In this document: positions 1-5,084 of the stretch, piece by piece
Numbering within the stretch: position 1 is the stretch's first letter
How the letters are laid out: each line of letters starts with the position of its first letter
Assembly: GCA_016193065.1 (NCBI GenBank)
Contig: JACPSX010000246.1
Coordinates: 1 to 11,643 of the forward strand
DNA length: 11,643 bases
Reading direction: 5' to 3'
Origin: Candidatus Tectimicrobiota bacterium
GTDB taxonomy: Bacteria > JACPSX01
Translations under genes and position numbers: made by a program
Notes under the pieces: generated by a model
What the model was told of the DNA's origin: nothing
Database searches by the model: none
The model's input: only the letters and a program-made list of their open reading frames with translations

Positions 1-962
1 TCCATCGTGTTAATGGGAGCACAGGGGATCCCCTCGACGTTTAAGAGTTCGATCCACTCGTCTCGGGTTTTGGTCTTCATGATCGGGGCCAGGATCCCGA
101 TGCACTCCTTGCGGTTCTCGACCCGCAAGGGGTTGGTGCGAAAACGCGGATCATCGATCAGTTCCGGAACTCCAAGGACTTTACAGAACCTGGCCCAGAG
201 CTGGTCGTTGCCTGCCGTGATGATGACGTATTTATCCTGGGCCTCAAACCCCTGGTAAGGAACAATGGTTTCGTGGGCTGTCCCCCAGCGCCGGGGAATC
301 TCGCCGGAGATCAGGTAGGAGCTGGCCATGTTGACCAGGGCCGCCACCTGAGTCTCCAGGAGGGAGAGGTCGATGCGCTGCCCCTTTCCCGTCTTTTCCC
401 GGGCATAGAGAGCCGCACAAATCGCCCCCTGAGCCGAGATTCCGGTGCACACGTCGGTGATCGCCACACCTACCTTGACGGGAGGACCCTCGGGCTCTCC
501 GGTAATTCCCATGAGCCCCCCGATGGCCGACACCACCAGATCATACCCCGAGCGGTTGCGGTAGGGGCCATCCGGGCCGAAGCCGGTGATGGAGCAGTAA
601 ATGATCCCCGGGTTCACGTCCCGGATCGCCTCGTAACCAATCCCCAGTTCATCCGTTGTGCCCGGAGAGAAATTTTCCAGAAGCACGTCCGATTTGCGGG
701 CCAGGGCCTTGATGATCTCGACCCCCTCCGGGGCCTTCAGATTCACCGTGACGCTGCGTTTGTTGCGGTTGGCGCAAAGAAAGTAAGCGCTTTCTCCGGG
801 GGCTGCAAATGGAGGTCCCCAGTGCCGGGTTTCATCGCCAATCCCCGGGCGCTCGATCTTAATGACATCAGCCCCCAGGTCCCCCAGGATCATGGAGCAG
901 TAAGGCCCTGCCAGTACGCGGGAGAGGTCTAAAACCCGAATGCCTTCTAGTGCCCCTGCCAT
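1..962 (-). CDS. CaiB/BaiF family (family III) CoA-transferase, 3' end cut by the window
   Basis: Family III CoA-transferases move CoA from one acyl-CoA to a carboxylic acid in the cytoplasm, often as the activating step of a degradation pathway. I translated the open frame from the ATG at 962 to the window edge: 320 codons without a stop. The N-terminus has the family pattern (GIRVLDLSRVLAGPYCSMILGDLGADVIKIE-type Rossmann start, residues 7-37), then LLENFSPG near residue 95 and the motif around GVAITDVCTG, where D170 lines up with the catalytic aspartate (Asp169 in formyl-CoA transferase). The family is usually near 400 residues, so roughly the last 75-80 are missing. The start is supported by AAAAGGGG seven bases upstream. 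It lies 136 bases after nrfD with a GC-rich hairpin between, so it may or may not share that transcript. The substrate acid is unknown; the family call is firm. Confidence 0.93.
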   Translation of the reverse strand, partial: MAGALEGIRVLDLSRVLAGPYCSMILGDLGADVIKIERPGIGDETRHWGPPFAAPGESAYFLCANRNKRSVTVNLKAPEGVEIIKALARKSDVLLENFSPGTTDELGIGYEAIRDVNPGIIYCSITGFGPDGPYRNRSGYDLVVSAIGGLMGITGEPEGPPVKVGVAITDVCTGISAQGAICAALYAREKTGKGQRIDLSLLETQVAALVNMASSYLISGEIPRRWGTAHETIVPYQGFEAQDKYVIITAGNDQLWARFCKVLGVPELIDDPRFRTNPLRVENRKECIGILAPIMKTKTRDEWIELLNVEGIPCAPINTM

Positions 963-1007
963 CAACCTGCCCCTTTTATTCTGGTCTGAAAATCCCCCTC
1001 ACCCTCC

Positions 1008-1098: not shown

Positions 1099-2037
1099 TT
1101 ACCGCAAGATGGGCGAGGGGAAGGTGTACTCAATTCCCGCCGCTCGCAGGGGCGCCTTGACTCCCGCAGCCAGGACCAGGCGCCTGAGTATGAGACCGCC
1201 AAACAACCCCAGGATGGCGGCAATCCGGGTCACCCACAATGTGGAGGAGAGGTCCCCTTCCGCCACCGCAGCCACCTCGATGATCATCAAGGCCAGGGGG
1301 ATCAGCAGGCCAGCCACAATGAGCCCGAACCAGAAGGTCCCCGCCAGCCGTCCCTTCAGCAGAAGGCGGGCCGAGGCACGAGACTCATCGGTGCGATGGG
1401 AGGACTGGACGTAGAAAGCAATCACGATGCACTGAACAACAAGGAGAACCAGAAGCACTTGGGAGAGGAGTCTGAAGGCCCCGGAGAGGGCCGGGCTCGA
1501 TGGGGTCAGAAGGATAACTGCCATGACTCCCGTGCTGCCGGCCGACACCAGAAACAGCAAAGGAAGCATGGCCGTGTTCCAGAAGGCGATGACCCGGGAA
1601 GCTCCCAGGAGAACCCCTGTGTAGATCATCACCAGGATCGCAAACACGAAGTTCACTACACCAATCACTCGAAGTAGGGGAGCGTTAACGGCCATCTGCC
1701 CCGGCCACACCATCAGGACCAGGTGGAGAAAGCCCAGGGTCATGAACACGGAGATGATCAGGCTCCCCCGGGTCATCCAGGAAGTTCCCGGATTGAGAAA
1801 GACCCGCAAAGCGCGCATCTTCACTCCAAGGTCCAGGATCAGGAACAGGCTAGCGATGAGCAGAAGCGGGAACGCCAAGGCGACCCCTGTCCTAGCTACG
1901 GGCTCCCAGTCCGCACCGCCATAGCTCGCCAGCACACCCATGGCGTAGCCGCCGGCCCCTGTTCCCGCCAGGAACAAATCGGCGGCAACAGGCCATTTCC
2001 ATTCATTCTGGACTTGACTCTCCAATTTGTTTGCCAT
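1099..2037 (-). CDS. NrfD/PsrC-type integral membrane subunit of a molybdoenzyme complex
   Basis: NrfD-type subunits anchor iron-sulfur molybdoenzymes to the membrane and exchange electrons with the quinone pool. The protein is 312 residues, with about eight hydrophobic segments (near residues 17-38, 48-69, 88-110, 123-145, 152-174, 188-210, 232-255, 266-286), which fits the family's length and topology. The N-terminal AADLFLAGTGAGGYAMG segment is typical of NrfD proteins. I chose the ATG at 2037 because AAAGGGGTGATCGCG precedes it. A longer frame to 2091 would start inside the upstream ferredoxin coding region. The gene follows the ferredoxin fragment by 13 bases, and the ribosome binding site overlaps that gene's stop codon, so the two are translationally linked. 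The order catalytic subunit, ferredoxin, NrfD is standard for polysulfide, thiosulfate and tetrathionate reductase-type complexes; which substrate applies here cannot be told. Confidence 0.88.
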   Translation of the reverse strand: MANKLESQVQNEWKWPVAADLFLAGTGAGGYAMGVLASYGGADWEPVARTGVALAFPLLLIASLFLILDLGVKMRALRVFLNPGTSWMTRGSLIISVFMTLGFLHLVLMVWPGQMAVNAPLLRVIGVVNFVFAILVMIYTGVLLGASRVIAFWNTAMLPLLFLVSAGSTGVMAVILLTPSSPALSGAFRLLSQVLLVLLVVQCIVIAFYVQSSHRTDESRASARLLLKGRLAGTFWFGLIVAGLLIPLALMIIEVAAVAEGDLSSTLWVTRIAAILGLFGGLILRRLVLAAGVKAPLRAAGIEYTFPSPILR

Positions 2038-2050
2038 CGCGATCACCCCT

Positions 2051-2527
2051 TTATCTCGGCGACAGGTAGTAAACCCGCGGGTTCGTCCCAAATTCAGGCG
2101 CTAACTGGAAGCCTCGCTCGGTCTTGATGAGCCGGGAGACCTCGCTTTCCGGATCATCCAGATCCCCGAAATAACGGGCGTTGGCAGGACATCCGGGGAT
2201 GCAGGCAGGCTTTAACCCCTTCTCCACCCGCTCGACGCAGAAGTCGCACTTCGTTGAGGTCCCCTCCCCGAACTTCTCAATCCACTTTTTCTTGCCGTAC
2301 TCTTCCAGGGGGGACAGGGGTTGGTCATCGCCGAAGTAGCTGGTCCACTTCTCCACGAAGTTGCGGGCGCCATAAGGACAGGCGATTGCGCAATATTTGC
2401 AGCCCACGCACAGATCCTTGTCCACAGTGACAATCCCGTCGGAGCGCTGCTGCGTGGCCTGGGTCGGACACACCTTCATGCACTCAGGATCCTCGCACTG
2501 CATGCACAGGATGGGGATCCGTGTGAG
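2051..2527 (-). pseudogene. Four-cluster ferredoxin subunit (PsrB/PhsB-type), 5' end missing
   Basis: This is the electron-transfer subunit expected between the molybdoenzyme and NrfD. Three cysteine groups remain: LCMQC..EC..VCP, then CVGCKYCAIACP, then CDFC with AC..GCP near the middle, 12 cysteines in all. Family members have a fourth group at the N-terminus (CxxCxxC..C, roughly the first 60 residues), and it is absent here. The frame stays open only to 2527, where a TAG (2528-2530) closes it. The first ATG (2503) would give 150 residues, but it has no ribosome binding site, lies inside the 3' end of the molybdoenzyme gene and leaves out the first remaining cysteine. The sequence just upstream of that ATG reads TRIPILC, which is normal ferredoxin protein sequence. 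So coding sense continues past the ATG and is then cut off. I read it as a 5'-truncated gene produced by a deletion or by a misassembly at about 2510-2530. Confidence 0.8.
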
Positions 2528-5084
2528 CTAAATCGGCTTCCACCAGATCATTAAAGAAAACCCCCTTCCCCTTAGCAATGGGCTGGAACGGGGTCCAGTG
2601 ACCCGCGCAAGCCGCAATGGCCAAGTGCTGGGGCTCGATTCCTTCAGTAAGGCGAACCTGCCCCTTGACCCTGTGCCCTTCGGGGTTTTCCAACCAGACC
2701 CAATCCAGATCCTGCAGCCCCTTCTTCTTGGCTGTCTCCGTATGGATCTGGATCGTGTAGGCATAGGGATCCTGCTGGGCAATCTCGTCGAGCCAGGGGT
2801 TCTGCATCGTCAGTGAGTTCGTATGCATCACAGCCCGCCAGTAGAAGGGGTACAGGTCGTACTCCGTGCCGTCATACATGTGAGTGGGGCACGGATACCA
2901 GTCGGGAAGAGCCTTGAGCCGGGACCAGTCGAGCATATCGCCGGCGCCGAACTGTTCGGCGATCTTCTTGACCTTCTCCCTACCGACGGGGAAGAACTCG
3001 AAGTAGATGGGGACCCGGACGTTCAAAAACCACTTCCAGTAGATCTCATCCACCTTCTTAGGCCAGGTAATCACCCCGTCTTTCTTGGCGTACTCCAGCC
3101 CCTTGTCCGGGCCGAAACGGTCCCGGATCAGGCGGTCACAAATCTCCTGCCAGGTGTAATCCTCACCGGGCTTGAGCTTGTTCTCTTCGTTGAGCGGCCC
3201 GCCGTAGCGGGTGGGAACGGCCGCATTCAGGGCCTCATAGTATTTGTCGGCGATCCCGAGCCTCTTGGCCAACTCCAGCATAATCTCGTTGAAGTCCCGG
3301 CGCTCGTACATAGGCTCGATGACCGGCTGCCGGATCTGCCAGCCCCAGTTTCCGAGCCCCTGGGGGTGGCTGAAAATGGAGGGGAAGGTCACCGCCGGGG
3401 TGTAGCGCTCCAGGAAGCAGCAGTCGGGCAGGACAATGTCCGCCACAGCGTCCGTGAACTCCGTGAGGTAGATGTCAAAGGAGAACACGAATTTGAACTT
3501 CTTCAAGTAGTTCTCCGTGATGGCCTCGGCGTTGGAATTCGTCATGACCGAGTTGGAGCCGAAGTTGATCAGGATCTCCGGCCGGTAGGGGATCTTGAAC
3601 TGCTGCCAAAGCTTCTCGTTGTCCGGGGAACAAATGGTGAAGCAGTTGTAAATAGAAGTCGGGAACATGTCATGGAGATCCAGGCGGGTGGGAGCCTTGG
3701 GCTCGTGAAGGGGATACGCCTTGTGATCGTAGACCCACCCCTTGGCCACCATGAGGCCATCATCATCGGCATACATGACCGTATTCGGTTTGCCTGTGTC
3801 CGGATATCCATGAGAGTTAGGAGGTCCCAGACCCAGGGAACTTCCCACGGTGTCCGCCGCCCCGACGATGTGATTGAGAAGATCGATGGACAGGCAGGTC
3901 CAGCCCGAGTTCACGTGTCCCTGAGCGCCGCGGAAGAAGATAGCCGCCACAGGGCGATAGGGGATTTCTTTGCCGTCGATAACAATCTTGCTGCCGATGC
4001 GGGCCTCCTCGGCAAATTCCTTAGCAATCCGGCGCAGTGTGGAAGCCGGCACTCCCGTGATCTTTTCCGCTTTTTCCGGGGGATAAGATTTCACGTGGTC
4101 CTTGAGGAGACGGAACGCCGGGGTGCAAGTCTCCCCGTCCACATTCACCGACTCGAGGAGTTCGTAGTCCACGATGCTGGGGTCATCAAAGGTCTTGGCC
4201 TTCCCCTCGACTCGGTCCCAAATCATGGGCTTGTTTGTCTTCGGATCCCGTTTGTAGAAGCCGTCTGGCTTGATCAGGTAGGAGCCGTTGGTCTTGAGCT
4301 TGATATACTCTGCGTCGTAAATGCCGAGCTCGTTCAGGATCACGTTGATCATGGCCAGGGCTGCAGCCCCATCGGTACCCACACGGATGGGCACCCACTC
4401 ATGGCCTTTGGCAGCCTGGGCACTCAGGAAGGGGTCAAAGACCACCGTGCGGCACCCCCGGGCCCGGGCGTCGGCGGCCTGGAAGGCGTTCTCGACGGCC
4501 ACGTGACCCGCCCCGTGTCCCTTGGAACAGCCAAAATTAAGGACGTAGTTGCAGTGCTGGAAGTCGGGGACGATGGACCAGGCTGCGTGCATGATCCCGT
4601 TCATAAAGTGCGCCCCGTTGCCGCAGTGCACCCCGCCTCCGGAGACCCAGTAGTTTGTAAAACCGAAGGCCTTCATGAACCCGGTTACTGCAAAGCGGAT
4701 CTCGCTGGTCTGCGTCGTCGTGGCCTGGAATAAGCAGGCCCGCGGGTCTTTTTTATAGGTCTCGCGCAGCTTCTCGACGATGGTGTCCATCGCCTCTTCC
4801 CAGCTTATGCGCTGCCACTGGGGATCAACACCTATCCCTTTCTTTGGATTGCCTCGCTTGAGAGGATAGTTCACCCGGTAAGGATCATAGAGAAGCATCG
4901 GACCCGCCACCCCTTTCGGGCAGATTCTCCCCTGGCCCGCCGCCGCTTTGGGATTCCCCTCCACCCGGATCACGACCCCGTCGACCCGGTGGGCCCGGAC
5001 GCCGCACTGGCAATAGCATTGTCCGCAGGAGGTTCCTATCCATACATCCTCTTTCACCACGCTTTGCCCCTTCTCTAGTGCCAT
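2484..5084 (-). CDS. Molybdopterin oxidoreductase catalytic subunit (DMSO reductase superfamily), no Tat signal
   Basis: This is the 866-residue catalytic subunit of a complex iron-sulfur molybdoenzyme carrying bis-MGD cofactor (Mo or W). The N-terminus has an FS0-type [4Fe-4S] motif (C20-x2-C23-x3-C27 ... C55), followed by the domain opening ISWEEAMDTIVEKL (93-106). C154, in GVHCGNGAHF, sits where a metal-coordinating cysteine is expected in PsrA/PhsA-like enzymes. The C-terminal part (GHWTPFQPIAKGKGVFFN) is the usual cofactor-binding cap. The ATG is preceded by GAGGTGATCG, and an in-frame TGA lies six bases upstream, so no Tat signal peptide can precede it; a cytoplasmic enzyme is the simplest reading. 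The C-terminus is abnormal: after HTDP (854-857) the frame runs into ferredoxin-gene sequence read out of phase and stops. About 15-25 native residues are probably missing. Candidates include sulfur-compound reductases, hydroxylase or transhydroxylase-like enzymes and acetylene-hydratase-like enzymes. I cannot choose among them. Confidence 0.9.
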   Translation of the reverse strand: MALEKGQSVVKEDVWIGTSCGQCYCQCGVRAHRVDGVVIRVEGNPKAAAGQGRICPKGVAGPMLLYDPYRVNYPLKRGNPKKGIGVDPQWQRISWEEAMDTIVEKLRETYKKDPRACLFQATTTQTSEIRFAVTGFMKAFGFTNYWVSGGGVHCGNGAHFMNGIMHAAWSIVPDFQHCNYVLNFGCSKGHGAGHVAVENAFQAADARARGCRTVVFDPFLSAQAAKGHEWVPIRVGTDGAAALAMINVILNELGIYDAEYIKLKTNGSYLIKPDGFYKRDPKTNKPMIWDRVEGKAKTFDDPSIVDYELLESVNVDGETCTPAFRLLKDHVKSYPPEKAEKITGVPASTLRRIAKEFAEEARIGSKIVIDGKEIPYRPVAAIFFRGAQGHVNSGWTCLSIDLLNHIVGAADTVGSSLGLGPPNSHGYPDTGKPNTVMYADDDGLMVAKGWVYDHKAYPLHEPKAPTRLDLHDMFPTSIYNCFTICSPDNEKLWQQFKIPYRPEILINFGSNSVMTNSNAEAITENYLKKFKFVFSFDIYLTEFTDAVADIVLPDCCFLERYTPAVTFPSIFSHPQGLGNWGWQIRQPVIEPMYERRDFNEIMLELAKRLGIADKYYEALNAAVPTRYGGPLNEENKLKPGEDYTWQEICDRLIRDRFGPDKGLEYAKKDGVITWPKKVDEIYWKWFLNVRVPIYFEFFPVGREKVKKIAEQFGAGDMLDWSRLKALPDWYPCPTHMYDGTEYDLYPFYWRAVMHTNSLTMQNPWLDEIAQQDPYAYTIQIHTETAKKKGLQDLDWVWLENPEGHRVKGQVRLTEGIEPQHLAIAACAGHWTPFQPIAKGKGVFFNDLVEADLAHTDPHPVHAVRGS

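Follow-up and report, generated by a model that had tools for sequence, protein, structure and literature searches.

A join across the catalytic and ferredoxin subunit genes of a Psr-like molybdoenzyme operon in a Candidatus Tectimicrobiota draft genome: deletion in the cell or in the assembly

The stretch of DNA analysed here (11,643 nucleotides, hereafter the window) corresponds to an entire 11.6-kb contig, C149, of a 294-contig, 2.9-Mb draft bin of Candidatus Tectimicrobiota with a completeness of 86%. On its minus strand, the genes of a molybdopterin catalytic subunit (A), a ferredoxin subunit (B) and a membrane subunit (C) follow each other in this order and precede that of a CoA-transferase (Table 1). 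Genes encoding FixC- and FixX-like proteins, EtfB, EtfA, an acyl-CoA dehydrogenase, an amidohydrolase and an enoyl-CoA-hydratase-like protein lie before the A-B-C operon on the same strand. The three domains of a catalytic subunit (Fe4S4, molybdopterin and dinucleotide-binding) were all found in A above the respective cutoffs, and C was recovered as an NrfD/PsrC-type membrane subunit. Among solved structures, the best relative of A is chain A of Thermus thermophilus 2vpw, while B is closest to ArrB of 6cz7, chain B of 2vpw being second. A scores below the cutoff of the NCBIfam model NF012032 for thiosulfate reductase PhsA (236.7 bits for a cutoff of 694), and no twin-arginine leader was seen in A by eye. 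As it stands, B lacks the first of the four cysteine motifs, which is present in all 46 relatives described below, and it is matched by the DsrO model only from position 98 of the 235 positions of the model.

Table 1. Coordinates of the A-B-C operon, its neighbour and the join in the window
Feature	Positions	Strand	Support
A, Psr/Phs-like molybdopterin catalytic subunit, 866 aa	2484..5084	-	Pfam PF04879, PF00384, PF01568
B, remnant of a four-cluster ferredoxin subunit (PsrB/DsrO/ArrB-like)	2051..2527	-	PF13247 and others
C, NrfD/PsrC-like membrane subunit, intact	1099..2037	-	PF03916, E 1.4e-27
Class III CoA-transferase adjoining C, truncated by the contig end	3..965	-	PF02515, E 2.2e-119
Join point GATCCCC, largest block assignable to both sides	2513..2519	-	Codon-by-codon comparison with relatives

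Re-reading of the sequence bore out the coordinates and reading frames that the first-pass annotation had given for the A/B boundary. Residues 1-857 of A are family-like, up to the motif HTDP (2525-2514), after which the frame continues into nine unrelated residues (HPVHAVRGS), corresponding to B read out of frame, and ends at a TGA (2486-2484). In the frame of B, a TAG at 2530-2528 is followed by ferredoxin sequence, LTRIPILCMQCEDPEC, open from 2527. The earliest in-frame start remaining in B is the ATG at 2503-2501, located within CMQC of the second cysteine motif and just 5' of the new stop codon of A. RNA folding at the join gave nothing unusual (z -0.28).

A search of genome contigs yielded 64 loci with relatives of A, among which 46, including a few near-duplicates, were readable at the 3' end of A as well as at the 5' end of B, with 54-69% identity in A over the best segment. 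These 46 operons are spread over Zixibacteria, Acidobacteria, Gemmatimonadota, Planctomycetota, Bacteroidetes and other groups, and form an uncharacterised family. All of them display the same layout, i.e., [HY]T[DC][SP], a tail exemplified by LTQGSDACAKVKIYKA, a stop codon, a spacer and then B, which begins about 53 residues ahead of a conserved LP[TV]LC and includes a motif of the type CYGCYSCQVACK. Compared with these homologues, A of the window is devoid of its last 16-24 residues and of its stop codon, the spacer is gone, and B is deprived of about 53 N-terminal codons including the first CxxCxxCxxxC motif. Loss of the end of A, of the spacer and of the N-terminus of B had been proposed from the sequence alone and is thus confirmed, the earlier figure of 60 or so codons being close and corrected to about 53 by the homologue alignment. 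In the window, 7 nt separate the His codon of HTDP from the Ile codon of IPI, whereas the corresponding His to Ile (or Leu) spacing amounts to 230 or 236 nt for seven relatives out of the eight measured, and to 331 nt for the eighth. From this comparison, the net shortfall would be about 223-229 nt, assuming a tight spacer before the loss, and more relative to the wider-spaced operons. The alternative envisaged earlier, homologues sharing the C-terminus of A seen here together with a ferredoxin naturally deprived of its first cluster, was encountered in none of the 46 operons. The presence of the missing piece in every one of them gives firm support to an internal deletion by comparison with the gene family. 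The tail lost from A is itself conserved across the family. Comparison of the last Pfam domain of A with that of a relative gave no measure of this loss, the A of locus L061 matching even less of the model.

Codon-by-codon comparison also delimits the bases common to both sides of the join. In the relatives, the A side reads HTD[PS]LT and the B side RQ[MAS][LIV]P; the codon ahead of Ile/Leu-Pro in B is thus Met, Ala or Ser, and never Arg. Hence, the CGG that would specify Arg in the frame of B is assigned to A, being part of its ACG GAT. Because the A-side codon following Pro or Ser specifies Leu or Ile, the sequence of A cannot run past GATCCCC. Under these two limits, the common block amounts to 3-7 nt inside GATCCCC (2519-2513), so that the microhomology CGGATCC put forward in the first-pass annotation does not hold in that form. 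The join also contains GATC, a common restriction site (2516-2519), and libraries prepared by digestion and religation could yield such joins.

The remainder of the three genes is free of a second lesion. B retains 50 of 51 near-invariant positions, and C is 41% identical on average to the C of its relatives (49% at best). A deviates at 11 of 268 near-invariant positions, a number exceeded by just two sequences; decay of the gene was considered from these deviations and rejected, A being among the least similar lineages (mean identity of 64% versus a median of 71%).

A search for other genomes of the same phylum returned the source genome alone, and a DNA search of 59 genomes for close relatives gave distant matches only. 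The genome itself contains paralogous A genes on contigs C20 (51% identity), C84 (41%), C292 (49%, partial), C255 (36%) and C6 (42%, partial), that is, at least five molybdoenzyme genes of this type in 2.9 Mb, in addition to more distant ones. A query with an intact ferredoxin N-terminus matched the products encoded on C20, C84, C255 and C292. A shortened B as a lineage trait was ruled out, with no homologue supporting it and these four paralogous ferredoxins being intact. When the lost piece was sought elsewhere in the bin, only paralogues of at most 55% identity were recovered. Two relatives from other genomes have peculiarities of their own. At L023 (7664-8187), a normal A precedes an ABC-permease-like gene of opposite orientation, and neither B nor C occurs within about 5 kb, part of this stretch being masked. 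At L060 (5001-7557), from a Thermoleophilia genome, tblastn recovered A in three segments, of which two or more lie in different frames, probably owing to sequencing frameshifts.

Taken together, sequence comparison indicates that the join is a lesion and not a design, through which about 225 nt would have been lost across the A/B boundary of an ordinary operon; it does not define a novel type of enzyme. We give an even chance to a real and recent gene-breaking deletion in the cell. In such a scenario, an A-B-C operon of a Psr-like molybdoenzyme would have lost about 225 nt through slippage or recombination at short matching sequences no longer than GATCCCC. A would thereby have been deprived of its last 16-24 residues and natural stop, and B of its start and first four-cysteine motif, while the other paralogous complexes of the genome could make this loss tolerable. 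Few shared bases at a join are typical of natural short-repeat deletions, and the k-mer overlap used by short-read assemblers is far longer than 7 nt. Therefore, an overlap of at most 7 nt, enough for a short-repeat deletion and well below an assembler k-mer, speaks for an event in the cell, as do the presence of the missing piece in all 46 homologous operons, the intact ferredoxin N-termini of the paralogous operons on C20, C84, C255 and C292, the spacing of 7 nt against 230-331 nt, and the absence of the lost piece from the bin apart from the above paralogues. If the deletion is real, the break must be recent, the rest of A, B and C being undamaged. This very integrity also weakens the case for a deletion, as an artefact explains it without any special timing.

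Indeed, a local misassembly, in which the assembly broke in this region and scaffolding or gap closing on a few fortuitously matching bases, or a chimeric read, brought the two ends together and left out about 225 nt of an operon that is normal in the organism, is quite plausible and falls somewhat short of an even chance. The window is a whole contig of a fragmented bin, and A and B are well conserved up to the join. Moreover, six N runs of 13-37 nt, i.e., about one per 67 kb, were found in the approximately 403 kb of the assembly that was sampled (L117, 4237-4249; L129, L132, L135, L139 and L140), which suggests that the assembly was probably scaffolded with read pairs and that joins lacking the backing of continuous sequence do occur in it. 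However, with such a short shared block, a scaffolding or chimeric-read error would be needed, and the lost piece lies on no other contig of the bin, though very short contigs may be excluded from it. A single N gap lent itself to comparison with homologues; it lies in a membrane-subunit gene of contig C115, where it preserves the frame and agrees with the homologues within a few codons, which argues against gap sizes being generally wrong; gross underestimates of size are not shown to be common. Contig C280 (L128) consists of N throughout. An ab initio scan for breaks over about 236 kb of the same assembly flagged 16 places, missed the join of the window and detected just 19 of 60 simulated deletions of 226 nt, and hence says nothing on the frequency of such breaks.

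A functional variant, in which A would end in a novel tail and coupled restart at the ATG 2503 inside the end of A would give a ferredoxin that functions without the full set of four clusters, is very improbable: conserved, uninterrupted frames flank the join on each side and this internal ATG lies just 5' of the new stop of A, but the arrangement occurs neither in the 46 family operons nor in the genome's own paralogues, the tail lost from A is conserved family-wide, and the motif lost from B ligates both FS1 and FS2 in the homologous NarH (PMC5338063).

In this homologous ferredoxin subunit, the first motif binds FS1 through Cys16, Cys19 and Cys22, and FS2 through Cys26 (PMC5338063). By analogy, three of the four FS1 ligands and a single FS2 ligand would come from the motif lost from B. 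The absence of this motif and of the start of B agrees with the initial description, whereas the view that a single cluster is concerned has to be widened to two. FS1, the cluster that faces the molybdoenzyme and accepts electrons from the latter's own cluster, would lose three ligands, and B could be made only by a chance restart at the internal ATG. As a consequence, no working complex would be expected if the deletion is real.

The surroundings of the operon give indications on the role of the intact family. A class III CoA-transferase, up to 82% identical to that of the window (3-965), accompanies the operon, in different phyla, at 12 of 33 long loci (L018, L024, L028, L030, L034, L035, L046, L048, L050, L053, L060 and L061). 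In some loci, it is more conserved than A. Together with the lack of an evident Tat signal, the recurrence of this gene suggests a cytoplasmic complex tied to CoA-thioester metabolism. At L017 (10010-11924), a relative of the operon is found near a gene for 6-hydroxycyclohex-1-ene-1-carbonyl-CoA dehydrogenase (TIGR03201, 469 bits for a cutoff of 339), and a dienoyl-CoA-hydratase-like gene is also nearby. These neighbours are no more than a lead towards a connection of the family to acyl-CoA or dearomatising metabolism. A broken gene pair known from one draft genome, in a phylum with no other sampled member, is no ground for claiming a new enzyme architecture; if real, the deletion would be the ordinary loss of one among several paralogous complexes. 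The intact family, with no evident export signal, a CoA-transferase neighbour and a distribution over many phyla, may outrank the join in interest.

Among known systems, PsrABC/PhsABC and the related ArrAB, of the complex iron-sulfur molybdoenzyme family, show the same A-B-C order and an NrfD-type membrane subunit. Unlike PsrABC/PhsABC, A of the window scores far under the curated PhsA cutoff and has no evident twin-arginine leader, and the missing first cluster motif of B is peculiar to the window among these systems and their relatives. The family of 46 operons is closer, with B behind A, C in most operons and the degree of identity in A and CoA-transferase neighbourhood reported above; in contrast to the window, all 46 carry a complete A tail and a complete B N-terminus. 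Finally, the join resembles bacterial pseudogenes arising by short-repeat deletion, which likewise show one clean loss of a few hundred bases, few shared bases and otherwise intact frames. The window has both a conserved segment absent relative to all homologues and a short shared block at the join, and differs from such pseudogenes in that its join is known from the assembly alone.
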